DNA from: Elusimicrobiota bacterium
Lineage (GTDB): Bacteria > Elusimicrobiota > Elusimicrobia > UBA1565 > UBA9628
Reading direction: 5' to 3'
NCBI GenBank assembly: GCA_016218575.1
Contig: JACRDN010000012.1
Coordinates: 1 to 64,000, forward strand
Length of the DNA stretch: 64,000 bases
A program made the position numbers and the translations under genes. Under the pieces are notes generated by a model. It saw only the letters and a list, made by a program, of their open reading frames with translations, had not been told where the DNA came from and did not search any database. Positions within the stretch are counted from its first letter, which is position 1. Each line of letters opens with the position of its first letter. Shown here piece after piece: positions 27,630 through 42,415 of this stretch.

Positions 27630-28421
27630 TTAGGCGGAGAAGCCCCGGCTTTCAAAATGCCGGAGAATGCGGGCGACGCGACGGGCGGTTCTACGCTGAG
27701 GTTGGCCGAGTTCTCGCGCGGCTTCGGACACGTTACCCCCGGCGGCAGCGAGTTCGGAGAGCAAGGAATCCACGTCCTTAGGAGACATTTTGAGCTTCGC
27801 CGGCAACTCGGCGAAGGCCTCTTTCAGGAAGAACTGGCGCAGGTGGGCGTGGGGAGTCTCGGTGTGTGTTCGGTAGATAAAAGGTCGCCGGATACCATCG
27901 GTAAGTTGCTCCGGGTCGAGGCCTTCCTCGGCGTGTTCGACCTCGTCGAGCGTGGCGAATAGCTCTTCCTCGTACTCCTGACGCCGCAAGTCATCGGTCT
28001 CTTGGTTCTTGAGAATTTTCCGGAAATACGCGGCCTCATGACGGCGGAGCCGGAGCATGAATTCGCGGTCTCGGACGTGGACATTGCCCCGCTTGGAGAC
28101 GCTGACCGGCGTCGTGGCGGGCACCTCATCCAGCGCCCGCCAAAGGACGTCGAGCAGGTGGCGCGGGTCTGTGAAGACGTCCCCTACTTTCAGCGGCCGC
28201 GACGGCCGGCGTCGGCGCGTCGTGCGTCGGGCTTTTCGGTAGAGCTTGTCGTGGATCAGGCTGGCCTGATCGACCGTGAGGTGAAAGTCCACCCAGTCGT
28301 CCAGGCGCGAGGGGGCGGGCTTGGCGGGAGGCTCGAGCGCCTCGGCGAGGAGCTCGTCGCCCAACGATAGTACCTCTATCGCGTGGGCTTCAAAATAAAA
28401 TGGCGGCGCTTTGGGTTCCAC
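27630..28421 (-). CDS. Unknown mobile-element protein with C-terminal HTH
   Basis: A 263-residue acidic/basic soluble protein starting with GTG at 28421. It has a basic patch (KARRTTRRRRPSRPLK, about 62-77) and a C-terminal helix-turn-helix-like region (DVDSLLSELAAAGGNVSEAA, then GQPQRRTARRVARIL). This suggests DNA binding and possibly regulation of transfer genes. I do not recognise the family. It is preceded by a structured leader with an intrinsic terminator 30 bases ahead of its start. Regulation by attenuation is therefore plausible. Confidence 0.6.
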   Translation of the reverse strand: MEPKAPPFYFEAHAIEVLSLGDELLAEALEPPAKPAPSRLDDWVDFHLTVDQASLIHDKLYRKARRTTRRRRPSRPLKVGDVFTDPRHLLDVLWRALDEVPATTPVSVSKRGNVHVRDREFMLRLRRHEAAYFRKILKNQETDDLRRQEYEEELFATLDEVEHAEEGLDPEQLTDGIRRPFIYRTHTETPHAHLRQFFLKEAFAELPAKLKMSPKDVDSLLSELAAAGGNVSEAARELGQPQRRTARRVARILRHFESRGFSA

Positions 28422-28449: not shown

Positions 28450-28596
28450 GCAATAAAAAGCGAGAAACGAGCTGGTCGTTTCCCGTGGTCTCATCCCGTT
28501 ACGGCGGGATCGTGGATACCCTGGGGCCTATTCCCCAGGCTACACAGGCGGTGTCGGGCAAGCTTCGCCCGACGGTAATAGGGTAACGGCATTATA
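28450..28596 (-). ncRNA. Candidate structured small RNA or attenuator leader
   Basis: On the minus strand a TATAAT box (28591-28596) is followed by four perfect stem-loops: GTCGGGC/GCCCGAC (28553-28573), CCTGGGG/CCCCAGG (28520-28539), ATCCCG/CGGGAT (28493-28510) and GAAACGA/TCGTTTC (28464-28482). The last runs into CGCTTTTTATT, an intrinsic terminator. CCGTTAC near the 5' end could also pair with GTAACGG in the third loop. No protein frame fits. It may be an independent RNA of about 135 nt or a cis leader of the gene starting at 28421. I see no clear -35 box. Confidence 0.6.
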
Positions 28597-28642: not shown

Positions 28643-29080
28643 TCAGATGAGCAGCCGAACCAGCTCCCGCGCGCCGACCTCAAGCAGCCCCAGGACTCGC
28701 GGCCCCAGGTGGGCGGCTCGCCAAGCGGCCAGGGAACCCCACACCAGGGCGAGCTGTGCGGCCAGCGCCGCGAGGAAGTTGACGGCGAACGGCGCTCGGC
28801 CAGCCACCGGCCTGACCAGCCACTCGGCTGCCGCATAGGTCCAGTCGTCCAGCGCCAGGAACAGGCGTAGCGCGCCCAGCGCAATCCAGAGTTGCAGCCG
28901 GGTCAACAAGCCGAAGGTCAGCAGGCAGCCGAGGACCAGCTCGCGGGCGATAGCGCCCAGGCTGGGCGGTTGATAGCCGCTTCGTTTCGCCGCCGCGACC
29001 GCGATGGCGAGCCAGACGATCAGCCGGGCCATCGGCCGCCAGTCCCATTCGTGCAGCCACCAATGGAGCCGGGCCTTCAT
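28643..29080 (-). CDS. Small membrane protein of unknown function
   Basis: A 145-residue protein rich in Leu, Ala and Trp. It has three or four hydrophobic helices (MARLIVWLAIAVAAA; LVLGCLLTFGLLTRLQLWIAL; FAVNFLAALAAQLALVWGSL). There is no known motif. Its ATG overlaps the integrase stop by four bases (ATGA), so it is translated after the integrase. Its role may be in transfer or entry exclusion, but nothing in the sequence proves this. Confidence 0.6.
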   Translation of the reverse strand: MKARLHWWLHEWDWRPMARLIVWLAIAVAAAKRSGYQPPSLGAIARELVLGCLLTFGLLTRLQLWIALGALRLFLALDDWTYAAAEWLVRPVAGRAPFAVNFLAALAAQLALVWGSLAAWRAAHLGPRVLGLLEVGARELVRLLI

Positions 29081-30042
29081 CGGAACCTCACCGAGCGCCG
29101 GCCGCTTGCGAGCGGCCCGAGCTTGTCTATCGGCGAGTAGCGCTGGTGCTGGAGCGCCACGTCGCGGTTGGCAAGGCGCACGTAGATTTTGACCATCTCC
29201 AGGGTCGAGTGGCCGAGCATCGCTTGGAGGCTGAAGGCGTCCCCGCCGTTTAGGATGTACTGTGTGGCGAAGGTATGGCGCAGCGTGTGCGGCGAGACGC
29301 GGACGCCCTCAATGCCCGCCGCCTTGCCGTAACGCTTGAGCCTGATCTGGAAGTGGCGCGGGCAAATCTGGCCGCCGAACTGGTCCAGGAAGAAGACATC
29401 CTGGCCGGCCACGTCGCCACGCCATTGAGAGTAATCCCAAAGCGCCTTCTTTACCGCGCCGCCGAACGGCACGGCGCGCTCCTTGTCGCCCTTGCCCAAG
29501 ACCGTGAGCCGGTTGGCCTGCCAGTCAAGCCGGTCCCGGCGAAGGCCCAGGACCTCGCCCAGCCGCAGGCCGGTATCGAGCATGAGCAGCATCATGGTCC
29601 AGTTGCGCAAGCCGCAGAAGGTCTTGGTCTTCGGCTGCGTGAGCAGGAGCCGCACTTGGTCCATGTTGAGCGGCCGGATGAGCTTCTTCTCTACCTTCGG
29701 CTTCTCAACCAGGCTGAAGGGTGTCGCCGGGATCAACCGCTCCTGCGAGAGGTAGCGGAAGAAGCAGCGCAGCCCTCCATACGTTCGATTGATCGTGATG
29801 GAGGAATGGCCGCTCTGACGCAGATGATCGAAGAACGCCCGCAGGAGGTTGGGCGTCGTCTCGCGCGGGGTGGACGCGCCGACGCCCTCCAGGAAGCGCA
29901 GGAAGCCCCCTAGGATAGTCTTGTACCAGGCCAGGGTATGGTCCGAGACATTCTTCGAGCGGCAGCGCAGGAAGAACAACTCTCGCGCCGAGGGCCAGTC
30001 TTGTGCGGCAACGTCGCTTTGATCTTTCCAGAGTCTTTGCAT
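29077..30042 (-). CDS. Tyrosine recombinase/integrase (copy 2, beside the tRNA)
   Basis: A 321-residue integrase with an intact catalytic set: Arg160, Lys184, His252-x-x-Arg255, His278 and Tyr287 (LGHSTLEMVKIYVRLANRDV). The N-terminal core-binding domain spans about 14-105. It resembles copy 1 along its whole length. It reads away from the tRNA-Met gene, 175 bases from that gene's 5' end, which fits an integrase acting at the tRNA attachment site of island 1. The 42-nt att repeat includes the anticodon loop. Confidence 0.95.
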   Translation of the reverse strand: MQRLWKDQSDVAAQDWPSARELFFLRCRSKNVSDHTLAWYKTILGGFLRFLEGVGASTPRETTPNLLRAFFDHLRQSGHSSITINRTYGGLRCFFRYLSQERLIPATPFSLVEKPKVEKKLIRPLNMDQVRLLLTQPKTKTFCGLRNWTMMLLMLDTGLRLGEVLGLRRDRLDWQANRLTVLGKGDKERAVPFGGAVKKALWDYSQWRGDVAGQDVFFLDQFGGQICPRHFQIRLKRYGKAAGIEGVRVSPHTLRHTFATQYILNGGDAFSLQAMLGHSTLEMVKIYVRLANRDVALQHQRYSPIDKLGPLASGRRSVRFR

Positions 30043-30216: not shown

Positions 30217-30258
30217 CTGCGGGGTAGAGCAGCCTGGTAGCTCGCAAGGCTCATAACC
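30217..30258 (+). repeat. Right att repeat of island 1
   Basis: Direct repeat partner of 6531-6572, with one difference (T at 30235, C at 6549). It forms the first half of the intact tRNA-Met gene. Confidence 0.85.
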
Positions 30259-30291
30259 TTGAGGTCGCTGGTTCAAATCCAGCCCCCGCAA
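30218..30291 (+). tRNA. tRNA-Met(CAU), initiator type
   Basis: A complete cloverleaf: acceptor TGCGGGG/CCCCGCA plus discriminator A291, D stem GAGC/GCTC, anticodon stem CAAGG/CCTTG around CTCATAA, variable loop AGGTC, T stem GCTGG/CCAGC with loop TTCAAAT. Overall it closely matches bacterial initiator tRNA, and the D stem has the A11-U24 pair. Two features differ from E. coli: position 1 is U and can pair with A72, and the 29-41 pair is A-U, leaving two rather than three G-C pairs at the anticodon-stem base. CCA is not encoded. It is used as the attachment site by island 1 and probably island 2. Confidence 0.93.
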
Positions 30292-31937
30292 CGGTCTCTG
30301 CGGAAAGAATCGCCGGTTCCCATGGAATCGGCGATTCTCTTTTCTAGGAATGGGAGGGGATAGAAGTTAAAGCGAGCCTCTCCTGGGTCGGGAGCAATCT
30401 CGATTTCCTGGACAAATCCTTTGACAAAATCCTTCTGTTCCGCCCTTGTCCCCGCTCCAAAGAGCCTTGGAAAGTCGTCAAAGTACTGAACCAACTCATC
30501 CGCGATCTTGTCCGGGTCTAGACTTAGGGCTTCTAAAGAACCAGAAATCGCGCTTAAATGGCCTCCTAGACGCTCTTTCTCAGCCTCTAGCCTCTTGAGC
30601 TCATCGACCAGGAATTGACTGGCAGAGCCCATTTTTATGGCCCCGACAAGGTTCCTTATCTCCCCATCCTTGGCTTCCACGGCTTTGCGTACTTCTTCCG
30701 CTCGATCTTTGGCGCTGGGATTTAAGGACTCCTCCAGGAGTTCTCGCAGCCGGGTTCGGATTAAATTCGTGTCCTTTAACTCGGAAACCCCTCGTTGAAT
30801 TTCAGCAAGAACAAAGTCATCAAGGACCTTGGCCTTGATCGAGAAAGCTGCGCAGAAATATTTCCCCTTATTGTGATACCCTCCGCATTGATAATAGGGA
30901 GCTTTTTCTCCATCATGGTATTTCATTTGGCCATAATAGCGGTGGCCGCATCGGGCGCATTTAATAAGGCCTCCCAAGAGATAGGGCGAATCATAATGCC
31001 TCCCATCCCGAGGCTTTCTCCTGCGAAATCGAGCTTGGATTCGATTAAACAAGACAGGGTCTATTATCGCCGGATGCGAGTTTTCCTTAATTATCCATTC
31101 CGATGAAGCCCTAATCCTCTTTGCCGCTCCAGGAGAGCGATTATGGTAATTGTGCCGATTATAGACGAGAGTCCCCTTATAGGCCTGATTTTTTAAAAGA
31201 CTCAGGATCGAATTCTTGGCCCAAAGGCCGCCATGAGGCGCTGGAATGCTCCGCGAATTTAAGTCATCAACAATAGCGCCTAGGCCATTGCCTCGATCAT
31301 ACGCCTGGAAGATAGAGCGGACAACCTCGACCTCATCGGCCGAGCCTGGGGTCCATACAACATGCTGGGATTTCTCCGCCTTGCGCTCCCCATTGTTCAA
31401 GACTCGAATAGGTTGCTGCTGCGAATTCACTAAAAGCCGAGCATATCCATAAGGAGGCCGCCCCCCACAGGAGCGGCCCAGGCTCGCGTGGCTTTTGCAG
31501 CCCCGAATAGTGGTTTCTGACAGCTTTTGACTGTATTCATGGGCTTGCGCGTGTTTTATAAGCTTGGAGACGGAATCCCCAAGAGACCCATCATTCTTAA
31601 ACTCATCCTTAACGTATACAACCCATACCCCGGCCCGTTTAAGCGCTTGCTCCCAATAAATCTTATCCTCAGCTGGAAGCCTACCGAGGCGGCTCACATC
31701 GTAGACCAGGAGATGCGAGATCCCATGACCCCCTGCCTGGGCAAGACGAATCATTTCCTGGAACCTTGAATCGCGCTCTATGGTCAGGCCCGAAGCATAC
31801 CCCTTCTCAGGAATAAATTCCCTGACAATGCCCCACCCCTTCTGATCCGCGTAGTCGCGGCAGGCCTTCTTCTGATCCTCAATAGAAAGCTCTTGCTTAT
31901 CGGTCGAACGCCGATAGAATGCCCAGGCCCTTGTCAT
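30273..31937 (-). CDS. Large serine recombinase/integrase
   Basis: A 554-residue site-specific recombinase. The catalytic N-terminal resolvase domain (1-150) has nucleophile Ser11 in YRRSTDKQ and the Arg pair in YDVSRLGR. A recombinase domain (about 165-275) and a zinc-ribbon domain with CARCGHRYYG and YYQCGGY...C (about 330-370) follow. Then comes a coiled-coil stretch (about 400-470) and a C-terminal tail. The last six codons and the stop lie within the 3' half of the tRNA-Met gene, so the gene's end was probably created by integration there. This is expected for the integrase of island 2. Confidence 0.93.
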   Translation of the reverse strand: MTRAWAFYRRSTDKQELSIEDQKKACRDYADQKGWGIVREFIPEKGYASGLTIERDSRFQEMIRLAQAGGHGISHLLVYDVSRLGRLPAEDKIYWEQALKRAGVWVVYVKDEFKNDGSLGDSVSKLIKHAQAHEYSQKLSETTIRGCKSHASLGRSCGGRPPYGYARLLVNSQQQPIRVLNNGERKAEKSQHVVWTPGSADEVEVVRSIFQAYDRGNGLGAIVDDLNSRSIPAPHGGLWAKNSILSLLKNQAYKGTLVYNRHNYHNRSPGAAKRIRASSEWIIKENSHPAIIDPVLFNRIQARFRRRKPRDGRHYDSPYLLGGLIKCARCGHRYYGQMKYHDGEKAPYYQCGGYHNKGKYFCAAFSIKAKVLDDFVLAEIQRGVSELKDTNLIRTRLRELLEESLNPSAKDRAEEVRKAVEAKDGEIRNLVGAIKMGSASQFLVDELKRLEAEKERLGGHLSAISGSLEALSLDPDKIADELVQYFDDFPRLFGAGTRAEQKDFVKGFVQEIEIAPDPGEARFNFYPLPFLEKRIADSMGTGDSFRRDRCGGWI

Positions 31938-34219: not shown

Positions 34220-34477
34220 TTATGGCATCCTCTTCCATCCAAATTGTTCGAGACAGCGATCCAATTCTACCCAATCAATTTTCCTTGAACTAGGAATGCC
34301 CGCTGCCTTTGCCTTATGAGCCATTTGCAGCAAACACATTTGTCGGTCCCCTGGCAGCTGCATCATGCTCTTAGTTTGATGCGAGTAGTATCTATATTCA
34401 CCAGGGATGGTAACGCAGCCGCATAGCAACACTGGAGGAAGAATTATGTATCTCGCAAATTTCCATACATGTTTCAT
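34220..34477 (-). CDS. Small lipoprotein
   Basis: An 85-residue protein with a short hydrophobic signal (YIILPPVLLCGC) whose Cys21 could be the lipidated residue, followed by a small polar domain with three further cysteines. Its start overlaps the stop of the HsdR_N-like gene by four bases, so the two are co-translated. The function is unknown. Confidence 0.6.
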   Translation of the reverse strand: MKHVWKFARYIILPPVLLCGCVTIPGEYRYYSHQTKSMMQLPGDRQMCLLQMAHKAKAAGIPSSRKIDWVELDRCLEQFGWKRMP

Positions 34478-35220
34478 GCGATTCCCTGTGGCTGACCATC
34501 TGAAGAAACATTTTCAATCGTTTTTTGTCGCCGCACGAGCCTTCGCCGTTTGATTTTAAGTGGCCCAATCAGGGCCAGAGCCTCGGGAGAAAGCATTTTA
34601 TGAATGGCGCTGCCCAAATCCTCATAATCAATCAATAGACCCGTTTCCCTTCGTATTTCTCGCCGGATATGCGCCAGGGCTGTTTCCTGAAACACAGCCC
34701 TCCCAATAGTCGCCGGGCTTAAAGCGATATTCTTTTGCCAAAAATCATCAAGCTTTCCGTCTTTTATGGAATCCTTATGAAGAAGGGATAGATGTTCAGC
34801 AGAAACATCGAAAGTCTCTCCCTTTGACAAATCGCAAGAAAAGACTTTTTCATACTCAATTCCCTCCTCAAAGGTTAGATGGTACAGAGTCCAAACAAGC
34901 CCATTGGTTAACACGACCCATCGGAAATTATTCCGCGAAGCATAAGCCTGCGCCTGCTCTATGTGGCGATCCCGCAGGATTTCGCTCGCTGCCTTCACCT
35001 CAACCAAGAGCTTTACAACCCCATCAATTTTAAGCGCAATATCCACGTACTTATTTTTCAACTGGGCCTCACGGCTGATATCGGTCATTACGTCGTAGCC
35101 TAAAACCTCTTCAAAGACTTTAATAAGCCTCTGAACGGTGTCTGCTTCGTTGAGATTATCGGACTGCGCCTGAATAAGGTACGGAAGCAGTTTTTTTAAG
35201 GGTTTACGGATATCAGTCAT
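34474..35220 (-). CDS. Orphan type I restriction R-subunit N-terminal domain protein (nuclease fold)
   Basis: A 248-residue protein whose first 150 residues match the HSDR_N domain: a PD-(D/E)xK core with Asp in KYVDIALKIDGVVKLLVEVKAAS (Asp-x16-Glu-x-Lys) and an upstream Glu in EADTVQRL. No helicase domain follows, so it is a stand-alone nuclease-like protein rather than a truncated HsdR. The C-terminus is basic (KIKRRRLVRRQK). It is paired with a small lipoprotein gene by a four-base overlap. A role in defence is plausible but untested. Confidence 0.8.
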   Translation of the reverse strand: MTDIRKPLKKLLPYLIQAQSDNLNEADTVQRLIKVFEEVLGYDVMTDISREAQLKNKYVDIALKIDGVVKLLVEVKAASEILRDRHIEQAQAYASRNNFRWVVLTNGLVWTLYHLTFEEGIEYEKVFSCDLSKGETFDVSAEHLSLLHKDSIKDGKLDDFWQKNIALSPATIGRAVFQETALAHIRREIRRETGLLIDYEDLGSAIHKMLSPEALALIGPLKIKRRRLVRRQKTIENVSSDGQPQGIA

Positions 35221-35280
35221 CTATTTTCTCCTGGACTATTATTTTTACTTCTTGGCTAGGCGGGAAAAGCTCTTTTAGAT

Positions 35281-35453
35281 GGGCGGATAACAATCAGCGG
35301 CATCCGCCCCAGCCATTGGAATAACCAGGAATCGAATGCCGCCTTTCCCACGCCGAAGCGTGGTACATCAGCGGCTTCAATCCGGTTTCCAATGTGCCCC
35401 TCAGCTATCTGAGTGAGCTTACCGCGCTCTTACGCGCGGTCCCGGGTGAAGCC
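35281..35453. ncRNA. Strongly folded non-coding segment (structured RNA candidate)
   Basis: No coding frame is supported here. Stems seen: GGGCGGAT/ATCCGCCC (35281-35309); CATTGGAA (35314-35321) with TTCCAATG (35387-35394); inside it GCCGC/GCGGC (35338-35375) enclosing CCACGC-CGAA-GCGTGG (35348-35363); CTCAG-CTAT-CTGAG (35400-35413); ACCGCGC-TCTTAC-GCGCGGT (35421-35440). GGCTTCA (35373-35379) can also pair with TGAAGCC (35447-35453), giving a pseudoknot. The order of elements on the minus strand recalls right-end guide RNAs of IS200/IS605 TnpB elements, but no tnpB is present. The strand is undetermined. Confidence 0.6.
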
Positions 35454-35654
35454 AAAAATTACTCTAAATTAATAGGTTCTAGATAAACCTCCTAATTTGT
35501 ATTTAATTAATTATAGCGGAATTCCCAGACAAAAACGGCACAATATTTATAAAGATATAAAAACTCCAAGGCAGTTTTATGTTTTATGGGGAGCGCGGTT
35601 ATTTATCGCGATTTAGTGGATTTGGCTGGCTTTGGCCCAAATTGGCCCCAAGCC

Positions 35655-35855
35655 CTAACGTTCGCGACTCAATACATCCTAAACGGCAGCGACGCGTTTA
35701 GCCTTCAGCAGATCCTCGGGCACTCGACGTTGGACATGGTGAAGATCTACGTCAGGCTGGCCAATCGCGACGTGGTCAAGCTGCACCGCCAATTCAGCCC
35801 GATGGATCGGATGGAAATCGTCCCTGGTGGCAGCAGGCGCGCTGTTGTAAGATGA
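35655..35855 (+). pseudogene. C-terminal remnant of a tyrosine integrase
   Basis: Codes for TFATQYILNGSDAFSLQQIL and on through GHSTLDMVKIYVRLANRDV, the last 65 residues of an integrase like the two in island 1. It keeps the second His and the nucleophile Tyr but lacks everything up to and including the HxxR pair. The upstream 60 bases of the frame are unrelated. It is a broken copy marking an earlier integration or deletion. Its base composition is more GC-rich than its surroundings. Confidence 0.85.
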
Positions 35856-35876: not shown

Positions 35877-36533
35877 CTATAGCGTCGCTGGCGGCAAAAG
35901 GTAATCCTTCTTAGCGGCTGCATTCGTGATCTGCGTATAGAATAGCTCCATCAGGGAGAGGATGTCGGCATGCAGTTGCTTGTACTCCTGGACATCTACA
36001 GTCAGATGCTGACCATGTGCAATTCGATTCCGATCTCCGACAAGCTTCTCATCAATAAGCTTGGCCTTCAACTCATACGGCTTATGATCTAAATCCAAAG
36101 CCAGCAGGAACTCGCTCAAAACGGAATAGGTCAGGTTTGACTCAGCACTCGGGATCAATTTGGGCGGGAATTCAGCCTGAGATTTCTCGGACAAGCGAAG
36201 CTCTCGAATCAGCTCGATTCGAAATTTTATCTTGTTCGAATTCGCCACCGATGACAGTTTCCCTCGGAACGCGCTGGCCATCGCGACAAAATTGTCCTTT
36301 AGCCGGCCCGTTTCTAAACGTTGATTATCCAAGAATTCAACATAGGCTGCAGCGCATGCGCGTATATGACCCTCCCAATGAGCGTAGAGCAATGCCACAC
36401 CACTCCTTAGATGGAGTTGTCGTGCTAGACCGGTGGCCCCGTCAATGGATAGAAGAATGCCGGACAGCTCTCTTCGACGCCAGGCCAGTTCTCCGGCGAG
36501 CTTCTCCTGAAGCTCCTCGACTGTTCTACTCAT
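35877..36533 (-). CDS. MAE_28990/MAE_18760-like HEPN nuclease
   Basis: A 218-residue helical protein with the family's ALLYAHWEGHIRACAAAYVEF block (about 47-67) and the HEPN ribonuclease motif R-N-x3-H in GDRNRIAHG near residue 170. HEPN proteins of this family are commonly encoded with DUF262 proteins in defence islands and are thought to cleave RNA. It lies 6 bases after the DUF262 gene and is probably its effector partner. Confidence 0.85.
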   Translation of the reverse strand: MSRTVEELQEKLAGELAWRRRELSGILLSIDGATGLARQLHLRSGVALLYAHWEGHIRACAAAYVEFLDNQRLETGRLKDNFVAMASAFRGKLSSVANSNKIKFRIELIRELRLSEKSQAEFPPKLIPSAESNLTYSVLSEFLLALDLDHKPYELKAKLIDEKLVGDRNRIAHGQHLTVDVQEYKQLHADILSLMELFYTQITNAAAKKDYLLPPATL

Positions 36534-36539
36534 AAGCCG

Positions 36540-37661
36540 CTATGGCTTAAGGAGCGCCTCGCCGAGCGGTACCAACTTAGGAGCCCTCGATGTGCCTCTG
36601 ACACCGGCCCCCGAGGATTTTCGGAATTCTTCGTTTCGCCAGATATCCTTGATTTTCGCCAACATCTTCGCCTTGTTGGCATCGGTGAATCCAGCCTCAG
36701 TCCAATCGCCAATTGTCTTTCCCACACCCAGCGCGACGACCTCGAAAGCAGAGACCAGGAATCCTCCCTGAAACACCTTCTTTTCCGGATTATATCTTCG
36801 GAAAGCATCATCGCCGGCCGACTGCTCGATGAGGAGAAACGTTTTCTCAAAGGCATCTTTTGTCGCTGTTCGGTCAAAGCTCGCATCTTGTGCGAGTTGG
36901 ATCATTTTCTTTGTTAGGAATTCTCCAACGTCTTCCATTGATGCGAGTTCCTCTGCCGTCGACCGTGCGTAGGCTAGGAATCGGAGCGCCAACTCCACAT
37001 CGTAGCGCTGCTCGACTTGCCGATCAGAAAGTCCGAGGCAATTCTGAAAAGGCTTGTAGGATGCGATCTCATTCAGCCATTCAAAAAAGGGCCGATCCAC
37101 CATGATAAGTATGCAGTTGCGAACCTCTTGGTGAGACAGCGATGATCCCAAAGTATTTAGTCGGCTGAAGAGCTCGTATTTCGCCTGTTGGTCGCTCTCC
37201 TTCTTTATGATTTTGACGTCCAGCTTTTCCCGCTTAAACGCCAGCCGCTGAGGCTGGCTGAAGGAAGTTTCAGGCGTGGAGCCTTTCCACATCTTGTCTC
37301 GGAGGCCAGGCAAGTAGTCTGTAGCCAGCAACTTGCTTGGTGGCCGCGGCTCGTCTTTCTCGGAACGCAATGCGCCGACGAATTCAAAAATCGTAGAAAG
37401 CCTTTGAAGTCCGTCAACGACCTCCCAAACCCCATCCTCACGTTGCGAAACGAAGATCGAAGGGATCGGAATTCCAAGCATGACTGACTCAATCAACTTC
37501 GTCTTCTGAAGCGGAGTCCAGCGGAAGAATCGCTGGAATTCGGGATGAATATCGAGTTCTTTGTCCTCGTACATCCGGACAAATTCGCCGATAGACATGG
37601 AGTAGCCATCGGTTTGAATCTCCTTGCGCTTTCTCTCGATTTCGTCCTGAAGTGTAGCCAT
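36540..37661 (-). CDS. DUF262 (GmrS-type) protein without HNH domain
   Basis: A 373-residue protein with the DUF262/ParB-like NTPase fold: LDIHPEFQRFFRWTPLQKTKLIESVMLGIPIPSIF, then the nucleotide site EVVDGLQRLSTI near residue 85-100. Unlike GmrSD proteins it ends without an HNH nuclease, so it probably depends on the HEPN protein downstream. Start: the ATG at 37661 follows AAAGGAGA. It forms a two-gene unit with the HEPN gene. Confidence 0.88.
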   Translation of the reverse strand: MATLQDEIERKRKEIQTDGYSMSIGEFVRMYEDKELDIHPEFQRFFRWTPLQKTKLIESVMLGIPIPSIFVSQREDGVWEVVDGLQRLSTIFEFVGALRSEKDEPRPPSKLLATDYLPGLRDKMWKGSTPETSFSQPQRLAFKREKLDVKIIKKESDQQAKYELFSRLNTLGSSLSHQEVRNCILIMVDRPFFEWLNEIASYKPFQNCLGLSDRQVEQRYDVELALRFLAYARSTAEELASMEDVGEFLTKKMIQLAQDASFDRTATKDAFEKTFLLIEQSAGDDAFRRYNPEKKVFQGGFLVSAFEVVALGVGKTIGDWTEAGFTDANKAKMLAKIKDIWRNEEFRKSSGAGVRGTSRAPKLVPLGEALLKP

Positions 37662-37795
37662 CTGCCATCTCCTTTGCATTCCTAGTGACGCCGGACCGCA
37701 GAATTGCCGAAGGACTTAAAGCAGCGGGTTGAAGAGCTGGTCGAAAGCGGGAATCTGGTCAGCAAGTCTAGTCATGCTTTTATTTGGCACTTCCC

Positions 37796-38902
37796 CTACT
37801 TCCCGCTCTTCGTCCGGTTGTCCATCATGCAGAGCATCTGGCAGTTCCTTTCTGTGGTCTTGCCGCCCTTCCTCCACGGGATAATATGATCCGCCTCCAT
37901 TTCATTGATATCGAAGGCCTTCTTGCATGTAGGGCATTTACCCTTTTGCTTTGCATAAATTTTCTGTTTCACCTTCTCATCGAACGCGCGCAGGCTTAAG
38001 GTTTTTTCATTGCCCGTCAAAAGATATTCGTAGATGCCCCTCTTATTATCCACCTCATCATCATCGATAAGCTCTATGATGCGCTTCTCCAGCGCCACCG
38101 CGCCCAGTCTGTCCTCTTTATGTTTATTGCAGAACTCGCCCCACGGCAAGCCTTTCATCAGTTTTGTTCGCCCGCTATCTTGATTCGGGAACACGCGATT
38201 AACCCAATCAAAGACCGCCTGCCAATACTGCCACAGCTCCTGTGCGTCTTTTTCCATTTGGTGTTTGCTCATGTAGTCGTCAATGTTCCCGCCGGAGATC
38301 CAATCGAGTGCAGTTTCTAGGACCTCTTGCCGAATCGGCGAACCACTGACGAGCTTATCCCGTCCATCTCGAACTGCTGGAGCACCTGTTTTGGAAAACC
38401 ATCGCTTCGCATCCGCAAGCCAAGGGCCGGTGTAAATGGCATTGCGCGCCTCCTGGTTGCTCAGTCTTTCACCTGCGGTGTTGATGATTTTAAACCAGTC
38501 AAGCTTATCGCTATCCGTTCCCTCGCACACATACACAAAAAGCTCGTAGTCCAGAATCTCCTGTTTCTTATTTTTAGTGAGGTTGCCAAAATTCATTGGC
38601 GAGCCATCAACCTCCACCGAGAAGTCGCCATGCACGTACTGGCAGATGCTGACAGTGCGCTGTTGCCCGTCCAATAATTCAAAGCCATTACCCGCCTTCA
38701 CCCAGTACATCGAGTTGAGCGGAAACCCTTTACGAACGGTGTGAATGACTTCGTTGCGTTGCTTATCCTTGTAGATGAATTCGCGCTGATAAGCGGGGCG
38801 AATGTTTAGGCGACCGCTGTATCCACGCACCCCCTCTTCCGCCTTATCCTCATAGCCCGCGACAAGTTCAGATACCTTGATATTTTTGGGGGTAATTTCC
38901 AT
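37796..38902 (-). CDS. DUF262-HNH nuclease (GmrSD-like)
   Basis: A 368-residue protein. The N-terminal DUF262 domain has IRPAYQREFIYKDKQRNEVI and the FELLDGQQRTVSI nucleotide-binding motif near residue 90-103. The C-terminal HNH endonuclease has CPTCKKAFDINEMEADHIIP and a closing N...LC of a zinc-stabilised betabeta-alpha fold. This resembles GmrSD-type type IV enzymes that cut modified DNA, but here it is 5 bases downstream of a DNA methyltransferase. It may therefore be the nuclease of a novel R-M pair, or sense the methylated state. The ATG at 38902 is preferred to 38965. Confidence 0.87.
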   Translation of the reverse strand: MEITPKNIKVSELVAGYEDKAEEGVRGYSGRLNIRPAYQREFIYKDKQRNEVIHTVRKGFPLNSMYWVKAGNGFELLDGQQRTVSICQYVHGDFSVEVDGSPMNFGNLTKNKKQEILDYELFVYVCEGTDSDKLDWFKIINTAGERLSNQEARNAIYTGPWLADAKRWFSKTGAPAVRDGRDKLVSGSPIRQEVLETALDWISGGNIDDYMSKHQMEKDAQELWQYWQAVFDWVNRVFPNQDSGRTKLMKGLPWGEFCNKHKEDRLGAVALEKRIIELIDDDEVDNKRGIYEYLLTGNEKTLSLRAFDEKVKQKIYAKQKGKCPTCKKAFDINEMEADHIIPWRKGGKTTERNCQMLCMMDNRTKSGK

Positions 38903-38907
38903 GGACC

Positions 38908-40065
38908 CTAATCCTTGCGCGTGCGAGCGACAATACGTCTGATGATTATCCTTGAATACGGGCACCGCGATTTCCCGTCCTTCGTTATCGCAATGTCCGT
39001 TCGGCCACGATAATTTTTCTTCACACCAATTTCTTTGCCTAAATTTCCGAATGGTATACCGATGAGCTCAAACTGTTCGGGATTGAATTTATCTAGAAAC
39101 GCATCAGGAACACCCATTAATCCATCATAGTCGCAGGGGATTTCCGCAGTCTGGCCGACTTCAATGGCATCGTAGTTGTCATACTTTGGATATTGGGCGG
39201 GCGAGTATTTTTTATAGAGCGGCAATTGTTCATGGCGCTTTGGGTTATCCATGTTGGTGAGCCAAATCGCCGGAACATTTATCAGCTTCACGCCATCTAC
39301 AACCTTTTCGTACTTCCCCATATAGTCGGCGAGAAACCACATGCCACCGGAAAATGGCCGAACGCCCGGCCAAAGTTTATTCTCTTTTATGAAGTTAAAA
39401 ATCTCTTTGTAATGAAGTGCGTTTTTATTACCGATAACCAAAAACTGCTTATCATGAGCTATCAATTGCGCCAGGTATTCGCGGAACAGTGAGAACGGGG
39501 GATTGGTGATGACGATATCCGCCTGCTTCAATAGTTCGACGCACTCGCGGCTGCGAAAGTCACCCGCGTCATAGATATCATTACCTTTGAGGGGCCGTGA
39601 TGTGTTTGCGTTGCGCTTCAAGAGATACTCAACATCAGCGAGGTCAGTCGCGCCGCGCCGTTTATGGTCTGGCACCTCTTTGATTTCTATCGCGTAGGGT
39701 TCTTTACCGTCAGGCTTGAGCCCTTCGATATCGAGAAGCGGCAACTGCCCGCCAGCGATGGGAGACTTCACATAGCTCGTGGCGATGAGCTTTTTGAGGC
39801 CGAGCATATTGAAGTTGAGTGCGAAATACCTAAAGAAGTTGCTCTCAAATGGGTCGTCGCAGTTGCAAAGAATCGTCTTGCCGCGAAGCTGCGCTTTGTA
39901 GTACTTCAGCTCATTTTCGATATCGCTAAGCTGCGTGTAAAACTCATCCTGCTTGGCCTTCTTTGCATTCGAAAGTCCCACATTCCCTATTCGGGAGGGG
40001 ACAGGAGCTTGCTCAGGCTTACTTATTCGTTTCCGAGCTTTCGTGGGCTTGCTTGCGCGTTTCAT
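38908..40065 (-). CDS. EcoRI-type adenine-specific DNA methyltransferase
   Basis: A 385-residue protein matching the EcoRI_methylase family: KAKQDEFYTQLSDIENEL near the N-terminus, the catalytic motif IVITNPPFSLFREYLAQLI near residue 185, and CDDPFESNFFRYFALNF near 70. It would transfer a methyl group from SAM to adenine N6. Codons are AT-rich compared with the core. It is followed at once by the DUF262-HNH gene and preceded by a frameshifted XRE regulator gene, a usual companion of R-M modules. Confidence 0.9.
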   Translation of the reverse strand: MKRASKPTKARKRISKPEQAPVPSRIGNVGLSNAKKAKQDEFYTQLSDIENELKYYKAQLRGKTILCNCDDPFESNFFRYFALNFNMLGLKKLIATSYVKSPIAGGQLPLLDIEGLKPDGKEPYAIEIKEVPDHKRRGATDLADVEYLLKRNANTSRPLKGNDIYDAGDFRSRECVELLKQADIVITNPPFSLFREYLAQLIAHDKQFLVIGNKNALHYKEIFNFIKENKLWPGVRPFSGGMWFLADYMGKYEKVVDGVKLINVPAIWLTNMDNPKRHEQLPLYKKYSPAQYPKYDNYDAIEVGQTAEIPCDYDGLMGVPDAFLDKFNPEQFELIGIPFGNLGKEIGVKKNYRGRTDIAITKDGKSRCPYSRIIIRRIVARTRKD

Positions 40066-42199: not shown

Positions 42200-42229
42200 G
42201 CGGCCTCCTTAAAAACTCGAAGGATACCC

Positions 42230-42415
42230 CGCGCGCATGTCTACTGACTTACGGATCGTCGCTTTCCCGCACCTTCCCATCCTCAACATCAAGGACAGTG
42301 GCCATCAGCGGTTGGCTCCCCGTTTACAGTGGCGGTACCGTGCCGGATTCTCACCGGCTTCCAACGTAGCACACGCAGGACGACGCCGTCACGGCGTCAG
42401 CGTTACAGTATCATA
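42230..42415 (-). promoter_or_regulatory. Cobalamin (B12) riboswitch
   Basis: On the minus strand the leader contains GCCGGTGAGAATCCGGCACG, the CCGCCACTGT segment, and the B12 box AAGTCAGTAGACATGC (42235-42250). These are in canonical order, with a GACGCCG/CGGCGTC hairpin at the 5' side (42382-42398). It precedes the CWC-DUF6580-PP-loop operon and should repress it when adenosylcobalamin is plentiful. Confidence 0.9.

Follow-up and report, generated by a model that had tools for sequence, protein, structure and literature searches.

What could a 173-base segment that lacks genes and has an elaborate predicted fold be doing? This question was raised by positions 35281 to 35453 of a 64,000-nucleotide stretch of DNA from an Elusimicrobiota bacterium (contig JACRDN010000012.1; the whole stretch is referred to here as the window). 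An earlier note, made from the letters of the stretch, had suggested an orphan guide-like RNA or a new island RNA. The results presented here pointed to a new Elusimicrobiota class of cis-regulatory leader RNA, an orphan attenuator resembling a riboswitch, and we assign this sequence-based reading a probability of about 0.6. The role of the RNA as a leader was well supported, and it probably serves as a two-state gene switch.

Structure and strand of the RNA

As the earlier note had indicated, the segment was gene-free, with no open reading frame (ORF) of at least 60 aa. Its minus strand had a folding energy of -89.3 kcal/mol, compared to -62.7 +/- 4.3 kcal/mol for dinucleotide shuffles (z -6.2, 0/200), and the plus strand folded less strongly (z -4.7 relative to shuffles). 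The core architecture on the minus strand consisted of helix P1 around hairpins P2 and P3, followed by P4 and then by a long hairpin, P5. The apical part of P5 paired with the internal loop of P1, forming an 8-bp pseudoknot (Table 1).

The stems named in the earlier note were all present where it had placed them. It had interpreted the pairing of GGCTTCA with TGAAGCC as a pseudoknot; the pairing itself was recovered, but it is the ordinary first helix, P1, and the proper pseudoknot is the 8-bp helix described above. The observation that ATCAGCGGC occurs twice on the plus strand (35293-35301 and 35367-35375) and that the two copies could compete for one partner also held, as the central GGCGGC can pair with either copy.

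To what extent these helices were conserved was clear from an alignment of 51 copies, in which 95.8% of pair cells were standard pairs, compared to 70.7% in shuffled alignments and at most 42.7% in slid ones. Compensatory double changes occurred at 50 of the 56 pairs. The alignment was fitted to a covariance model and was biased towards the helices of that model; the pseudoknot was absent from the model. In the pseudoknot, 99% of the cells were paired and all eight pairs covaried, with strands that varied widely in sequence between copies and kept their complementarity. Covariation was also seen within the family to which the genome of the window belongs (referred to here as its own family). 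Judging from these comparisons, selection acts on the stems.

Conserved G-U pairs (for example, a U-G pair in 48 of 50 cells) were valid as pairs on the minus strand only. These pairs identify the minus strand, as the earlier note had proposed, as the functional one and suggest an RNA. The structure is genuine and lies on the minus strand.

Copies of the RNA and the genes that follow them

The RNA was single-copy in its own 2.8-Mb genome, based on sequence and covariance-model searches. BLASTN, one of the checks suggested in the earlier note, revealed homologs in 14 of the 44 same-family genomes, with 71-96% identity over the matched part. Two covariance models were built, R1 from 13 copies and R2 from 51 rows, and a search with R1 raised the number of positive same-family genomes to 18. 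In a phylum-wide R1 search that scored only a few candidates per genome, copies were found in 45 of 341 Elusimicrobiota genomes. In another family, f7, with genome sizes of ~1.0-2.3 Mb, the R2 search was positive for 35 of 40 sampled genomes and yielded at least 206 copies, with a maximum of 46 in one genome.

A pattern scan of public genomes matched Elusimicrobia metagenome-assembled genomes (MAGs) and two MAGs labelled only "bacterium." Matches in Akkermansia and Pseudomonas were rejected as chance, since both failed the covariance model. No copies were detected in phages and plasmids via BLASTN or in viral contigs via a narrow-pattern scan. None of the 4227 families of Rfam 15, HEARO included, matched over the element at gathering or permissive thresholds, and our literature search turned up no account of an RNA of this kind in Elusimicrobia. 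The RNA is therefore uncatalogued and, in the searches made, confined to the phylum Elusimicrobiota. The family extends beyond islands; of the suggested "new island RNA," the novelty was borne out and the restriction to islands was not.

The position of the copies relative to genes was strongly biased. A same-strand gene with a Shine-Dalgarno sequence started within 350 nt downstream of 85 of the 103 distinct copies, compared to 20 copies in the identical test of the divergent side (Fisher p 2e-20, equal denominators). In genome G090, pilin-like genes followed 16 of the 17 copies inspected, with the 113 pilin-like matches of the genome as background, an enrichment with a p value of about 5e-17 if 1,400 genes are assumed for the genome. 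The bias toward downstream pilin genes was seen in G090 and G144. Numbers of RNAs and pilins were not simply linked, as G070 and G080 had more than 100 pilin-like matches and no detected copies. Five genomes of ~1.5 Mb (G070, G080, G090, G144, and G152) each had more than 100 N-methylation pilin-like matches. Judged from sequence, the products of other downstream genes included a glycosyltransferase, response regulators, a sigma-factor-like protein, and proteins resembling lipoproteins or outer-membrane proteins; an MmeI-type enzyme was confirmed by Pfam.

A unit consisting of the RNA and a glycosyltransferase gene was retained in four species. The more distant upstream DNA of one species (L120) was unrelated to that of the other three, yet the unit from TATAAT box to gene was intact. 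Survival of the unit after upstream replacement was the strongest indication that RNA and downstream gene belong together. In addition, the DNA upstream of copies contained -10-like boxes modestly more often than control stretches did. As expected of a riboswitch, the conserved and structured domain lay in the 5' leaders of genes, a placement that was well supported.

The same data bore on three other explanations. The RNA might act in trans as an independent small RNA with its 3' end at the U-tract of P5, the neighbouring gene being incidental. The promoter-like boxes, the U-tract, and the copies lacking a clear same-strand gene fit this idea, which we nevertheless consider improbable: the same-strand bias was strong, pilin genes were favoured in two genomes, the linkage of RNA to gene survived rearrangement, and there were many copies per genome, with differing pseudoknot strands.

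It was more improbable still, and quite so, that the segment belongs to a mobile element or serves in recombination, for example as an attC-like site in a gene-cassette array or as a dispersed repeat. Copies were intergenic, some were truncated, many lay near contig ends, and tyrosine-recombinase fragments adjoined two of them. However, the RNA-specific G-U pairs on one strand, the promoters and U-tracts, and the vertical linkage to the same gene did not fit a recombination site; no shared flanking repeat was seen, and the recombinase in the window was XerC-like (71.8 bits versus the TIGR02249 integron-integrase cut-off of 265; window only). The gene-RNA-gene layout had suggested an integron-like cassette array, an idea that was dropped because the G-U pairs were specific to one strand, promoters and U-tracts were present, and units of RNA and gene were conserved.

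The guide-RNA reading of the earlier note fared worst. TnpB omega-RNAs and IscB omega-RNAs (HEARO) are compact pseudoknotted RNAs of comparable length, and the size, the pseudoknot, and the mobile genes nearby recall an orphan omega-RNA or guide-like RNA of such an element. Yet there was no PF07282 match in the genome of the window, no nuclease family recurred beside the copies, and no Rfam match, HEARO included, covered the element. Nor was there a variable guide flank; the 3' flank instead tended to re-pair with the 3' strand of P5 and ran into the start of a gene, and the genes preceded by copies were unrelated. We regard this origin as hardly credible.

Predicted alternative folds and the terminator-like hairpin

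How might such a leader work? In the mechanism that we propose, the segment would be the 5' leader of the message of an HsdR_N-like gene, and in most families P5, with the U-tract behind it, could serve as an intrinsic terminator that is itself part of the pseudoknotted domain. In a competing fold, the 3' strand of P1 would pair with the 5' strand of P5, while the 3' strand of P5 would form P6 with sequence further downstream; the 8-bp helix would then be nested in the ordinary way. Stabilization of the pseudoknotted form by a signal, probably a small molecule, would stop or lower downstream expression; the other fold would permit read-through.

U-rich stretches usually followed P5, most strongly outside the own family, and give it the look of an intrinsic terminator within the pseudoknotted domain. 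The alternative pairings were examined via a swap test of 45 copies. Complementarity of the 3' strand of P1 to the 5' strand of P5 was higher within copies than after strands had been swapped between copies (z 5.0), as was that of the 3' strand of P5 to the sequence just downstream (z 4.6). Two negative-control pairings had z values of -0.1 and 1.1. Pairing of the 5' strand of P1 with a segment near the Shine-Dalgarno sequence was striking in a few G090 copies and not significant overall (Fisher p 0.14; z 1.7). According to energy estimates that excluded the pseudoknot helix, the nested form with P1 and P5 lay 8.7 +/- 8.8 kcal/mol above the alternative. The pseudoknot helix added about -9 kcal/mol in most copies, which offsets this gap, so the two forms appeared to be roughly balanced on average. 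Two mutually exclusive folds of similar estimated energy were thus predicted.

Several observations weighed against a riboswitch-like attenuator. The U-tracts of the own family were weak, relatedness of the copies may inflate the swap test, and the antiterminator-like pairing of the 3' strand of P1 with the 5' strand of P5 was only modestly supported by column-wise covariation. The window copy favoured the alternative fold by estimated energy. Downstream genes were diverse, and 18 of the 103 copies had no clear downstream gene; some of these genes were probably missed by the simple gene caller.

The positional and terminator evidence would also suit a leader that responds to a protein, either an RNA-binding regulator or the state of the ribosome, with the structure as the binding site and P5 as the attenuator. 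A global regulator would account for the diverse targets, and the GGAGG ahead of the core, conserved in the own family and lacking a start codon behind it, resembles a Shine-Dalgarno sequence without an ORF. On the other hand, a large pseudoknotted core that is conserved throughout the phylum is more elaborate than most protein-bound leaders. We consider a protein-responsive leader unlikely, though the least so of the alternatives discussed here.

The nature of a small-molecule signal can be addressed more tentatively. GGDEF proteins were present in all 22 genomes tested, and the c-di-GMP-I riboswitch (RF01051) was present in 4 of the 22; it was absent from the f7 genomes tested and from the genome of the window. 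Given this distribution, a cyclic dinucleotide is a reasonable first candidate for the ligand and nothing more. At somewhat below even odds, we place a more specific version of the riboswitch-like attenuator: a new class of orphan riboswitch, exclusive to Elusimicrobiota, in which the pseudoknot would clamp its own terminator hairpin and the ligand, perhaps a second messenger, would coordinate pilins, outer-membrane proteins, lipoproteins, and glycosyltransferases, some copies having been captured by restriction-type genes of islands.

The window copy and its neighbours

The window contained one copy of the RNA, located ahead of the HsdR_N-like gene, with about 65 nt between the RNA and the ATG. 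The start of a second gene of the putative operon overlapped the stop of the first, and its 85-aa product had no Pfam or NCBIfam match. A consensus scan upstream of the window RNA identified no full promoter and no good -35 element. The U-tract of this copy was poor; control here, if any, may therefore be translational or have been lost, or the copy may be partly decayed.

Table 1. Features of the leader RNA and its downstream genes in the window, in the order of the minus strand
Feature	Position	Strand	Evidence or remark
TATAAT, -10-like box upstream of the RNA	35510..35515	-	Sequence
GGAGG in leader	35488..35492	-	~38 nt before P1; kept in nearly all own-family copies
Whole covariance-model match	35285..35462	-	R1 192.7 bits, R2 169.9 bits; this copy is in both training sets
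P1 5' strand GGCTTCA	35447..35453	-	Pairs with 35373-35379; 7/7 P1 pairs covary
P2 hairpin CCGCGC...GCGCGG	35422..35439	-	6/6 pairs covary; 99.3% paired
P3 hairpin AGCTCACTCAG...CTGAGGGGCAC	35394..35419	-	Helices 4 and 5 of covariation test
Pseudoknot 5' strand CATTGGAA	35387..35394	-	Pairs with 35314-35321; 8/8 pairs covary, 99% of cells paired
P1 3' strand TGAAGCC	35373..35379	-	With the following GC, able to pair alternatively with P5 5' strand
P4 hairpin CCACGCTTCGGCGTGG	35348..35363	-	6/6 pairs covary
P5 5' strand GGCGGCATTCG	35333..35343	-	Pairs with 35296-35306; 11/11 P5 pairs covary
Pseudoknot 3' strand TTCCAATG, apical part of P5	35314..35321	-	Covariation
P5 3' strand CGGATGCCGCT, then weak U-rich GATTGTT	35296..35306	-	Covariation; U-tract checks
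Alternative hairpin P6 GGGCGGAT...ATCCGCCC, excludes P5	35281..35309	-	Swap test z 4.6 (45 copies); Fisher p 3e-8
Shine-Dalgarno AGGAG of downstream gene	35228..35232	-	Sequence
Downstream gene, 248 aa, HsdR_N-type domain	34474..35220	-	PF13588 3.9e-8; PF04313 5e-7
Second gene of putative operon, 85 aa, lipoprotein-like signal	34220..34477	-	ORF; lipoprotein judged from sequence

On the other side of the RNA lay a C-terminal fragment of a XerC-like tyrosine recombinase (35586-35855, plus strand) that was 74% alike to an intact gene at 29077-30042 (minus strand). A similar fragment was fused to a truncated RNA copy in genome L021. Mutually homologous genes, named ORF6N-domain-like from their sequences, were located upstream of the RNA in L010, L019, L021, and L024, and in three of these four genomes they ended just before the GGAGG. 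A defence-like cluster at 35877-40065 (minus strand) encoded a HEPN protein, an NsnA/GmrSD-like protein, an HNH type II restriction enzyme, and an EcoRI-type methylase. At 30218-31937, a large serine recombinase gene (minus strand) overlapped the end of a tRNA gene (plus strand), as in tRNA-targeted islands. The window also contained a segment that strongly matched the 2dG-II purine riboswitch (28480-28550, minus strand; 78.9 bits), upstream of an ORF at 27630-28421 (minus strand) that had no NCBIfam match, and a cobalamin riboswitch (42217-42391, minus strand; 87.8 bits) that overlapped the 5' end of a same-strand ORF.

Related systems and biological meaning

The HMP-PP (thiS motif) riboswitch reportedly has an aptamer embedded in its terminator. 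The likeness is that a terminator hairpin contributes to the folded domain that does the sensing; the Elusimicrobiota RNA differs in its genes, its much larger and distinct architecture, its lack of an Rfam sequence match, and a ligand that is only inferred. The structured leader, the terminator-like helix, and the predicted exclusive alternative pairing are shared with attenuators and orphan riboswitch candidates, unlike which the RNA was restricted to Elusimicrobiota in the searches made and had an 8-bp pseudoknot linking the terminator loop to the first domain. The c-di-GMP-I riboswitch (GEMM, RF01051) occurs in many copies per genome before diverse surface, motility, and signalling genes (PMC7266159). 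The Elusimicrobiota RNA likewise preceded diverse genes in many copies per genome, but it had no RF01051 match, and the genuine RF01051 copies lay elsewhere in their genomes.

A single island copy thus led to an RNA family that spans the phylum and is absent from Rfam 15, and in some genomes this RNA preceded dozens of genes. If it is a riboswitch, its class would be new and architecturally distinct, and it would come from a phylum of which few members have been cultured. It would provide an orphan ligand to seek and a handle on the control of part of a very large pilin repertoire, which comprises more than 100 pilin-like genes in genomes of ~1.5 Mb.
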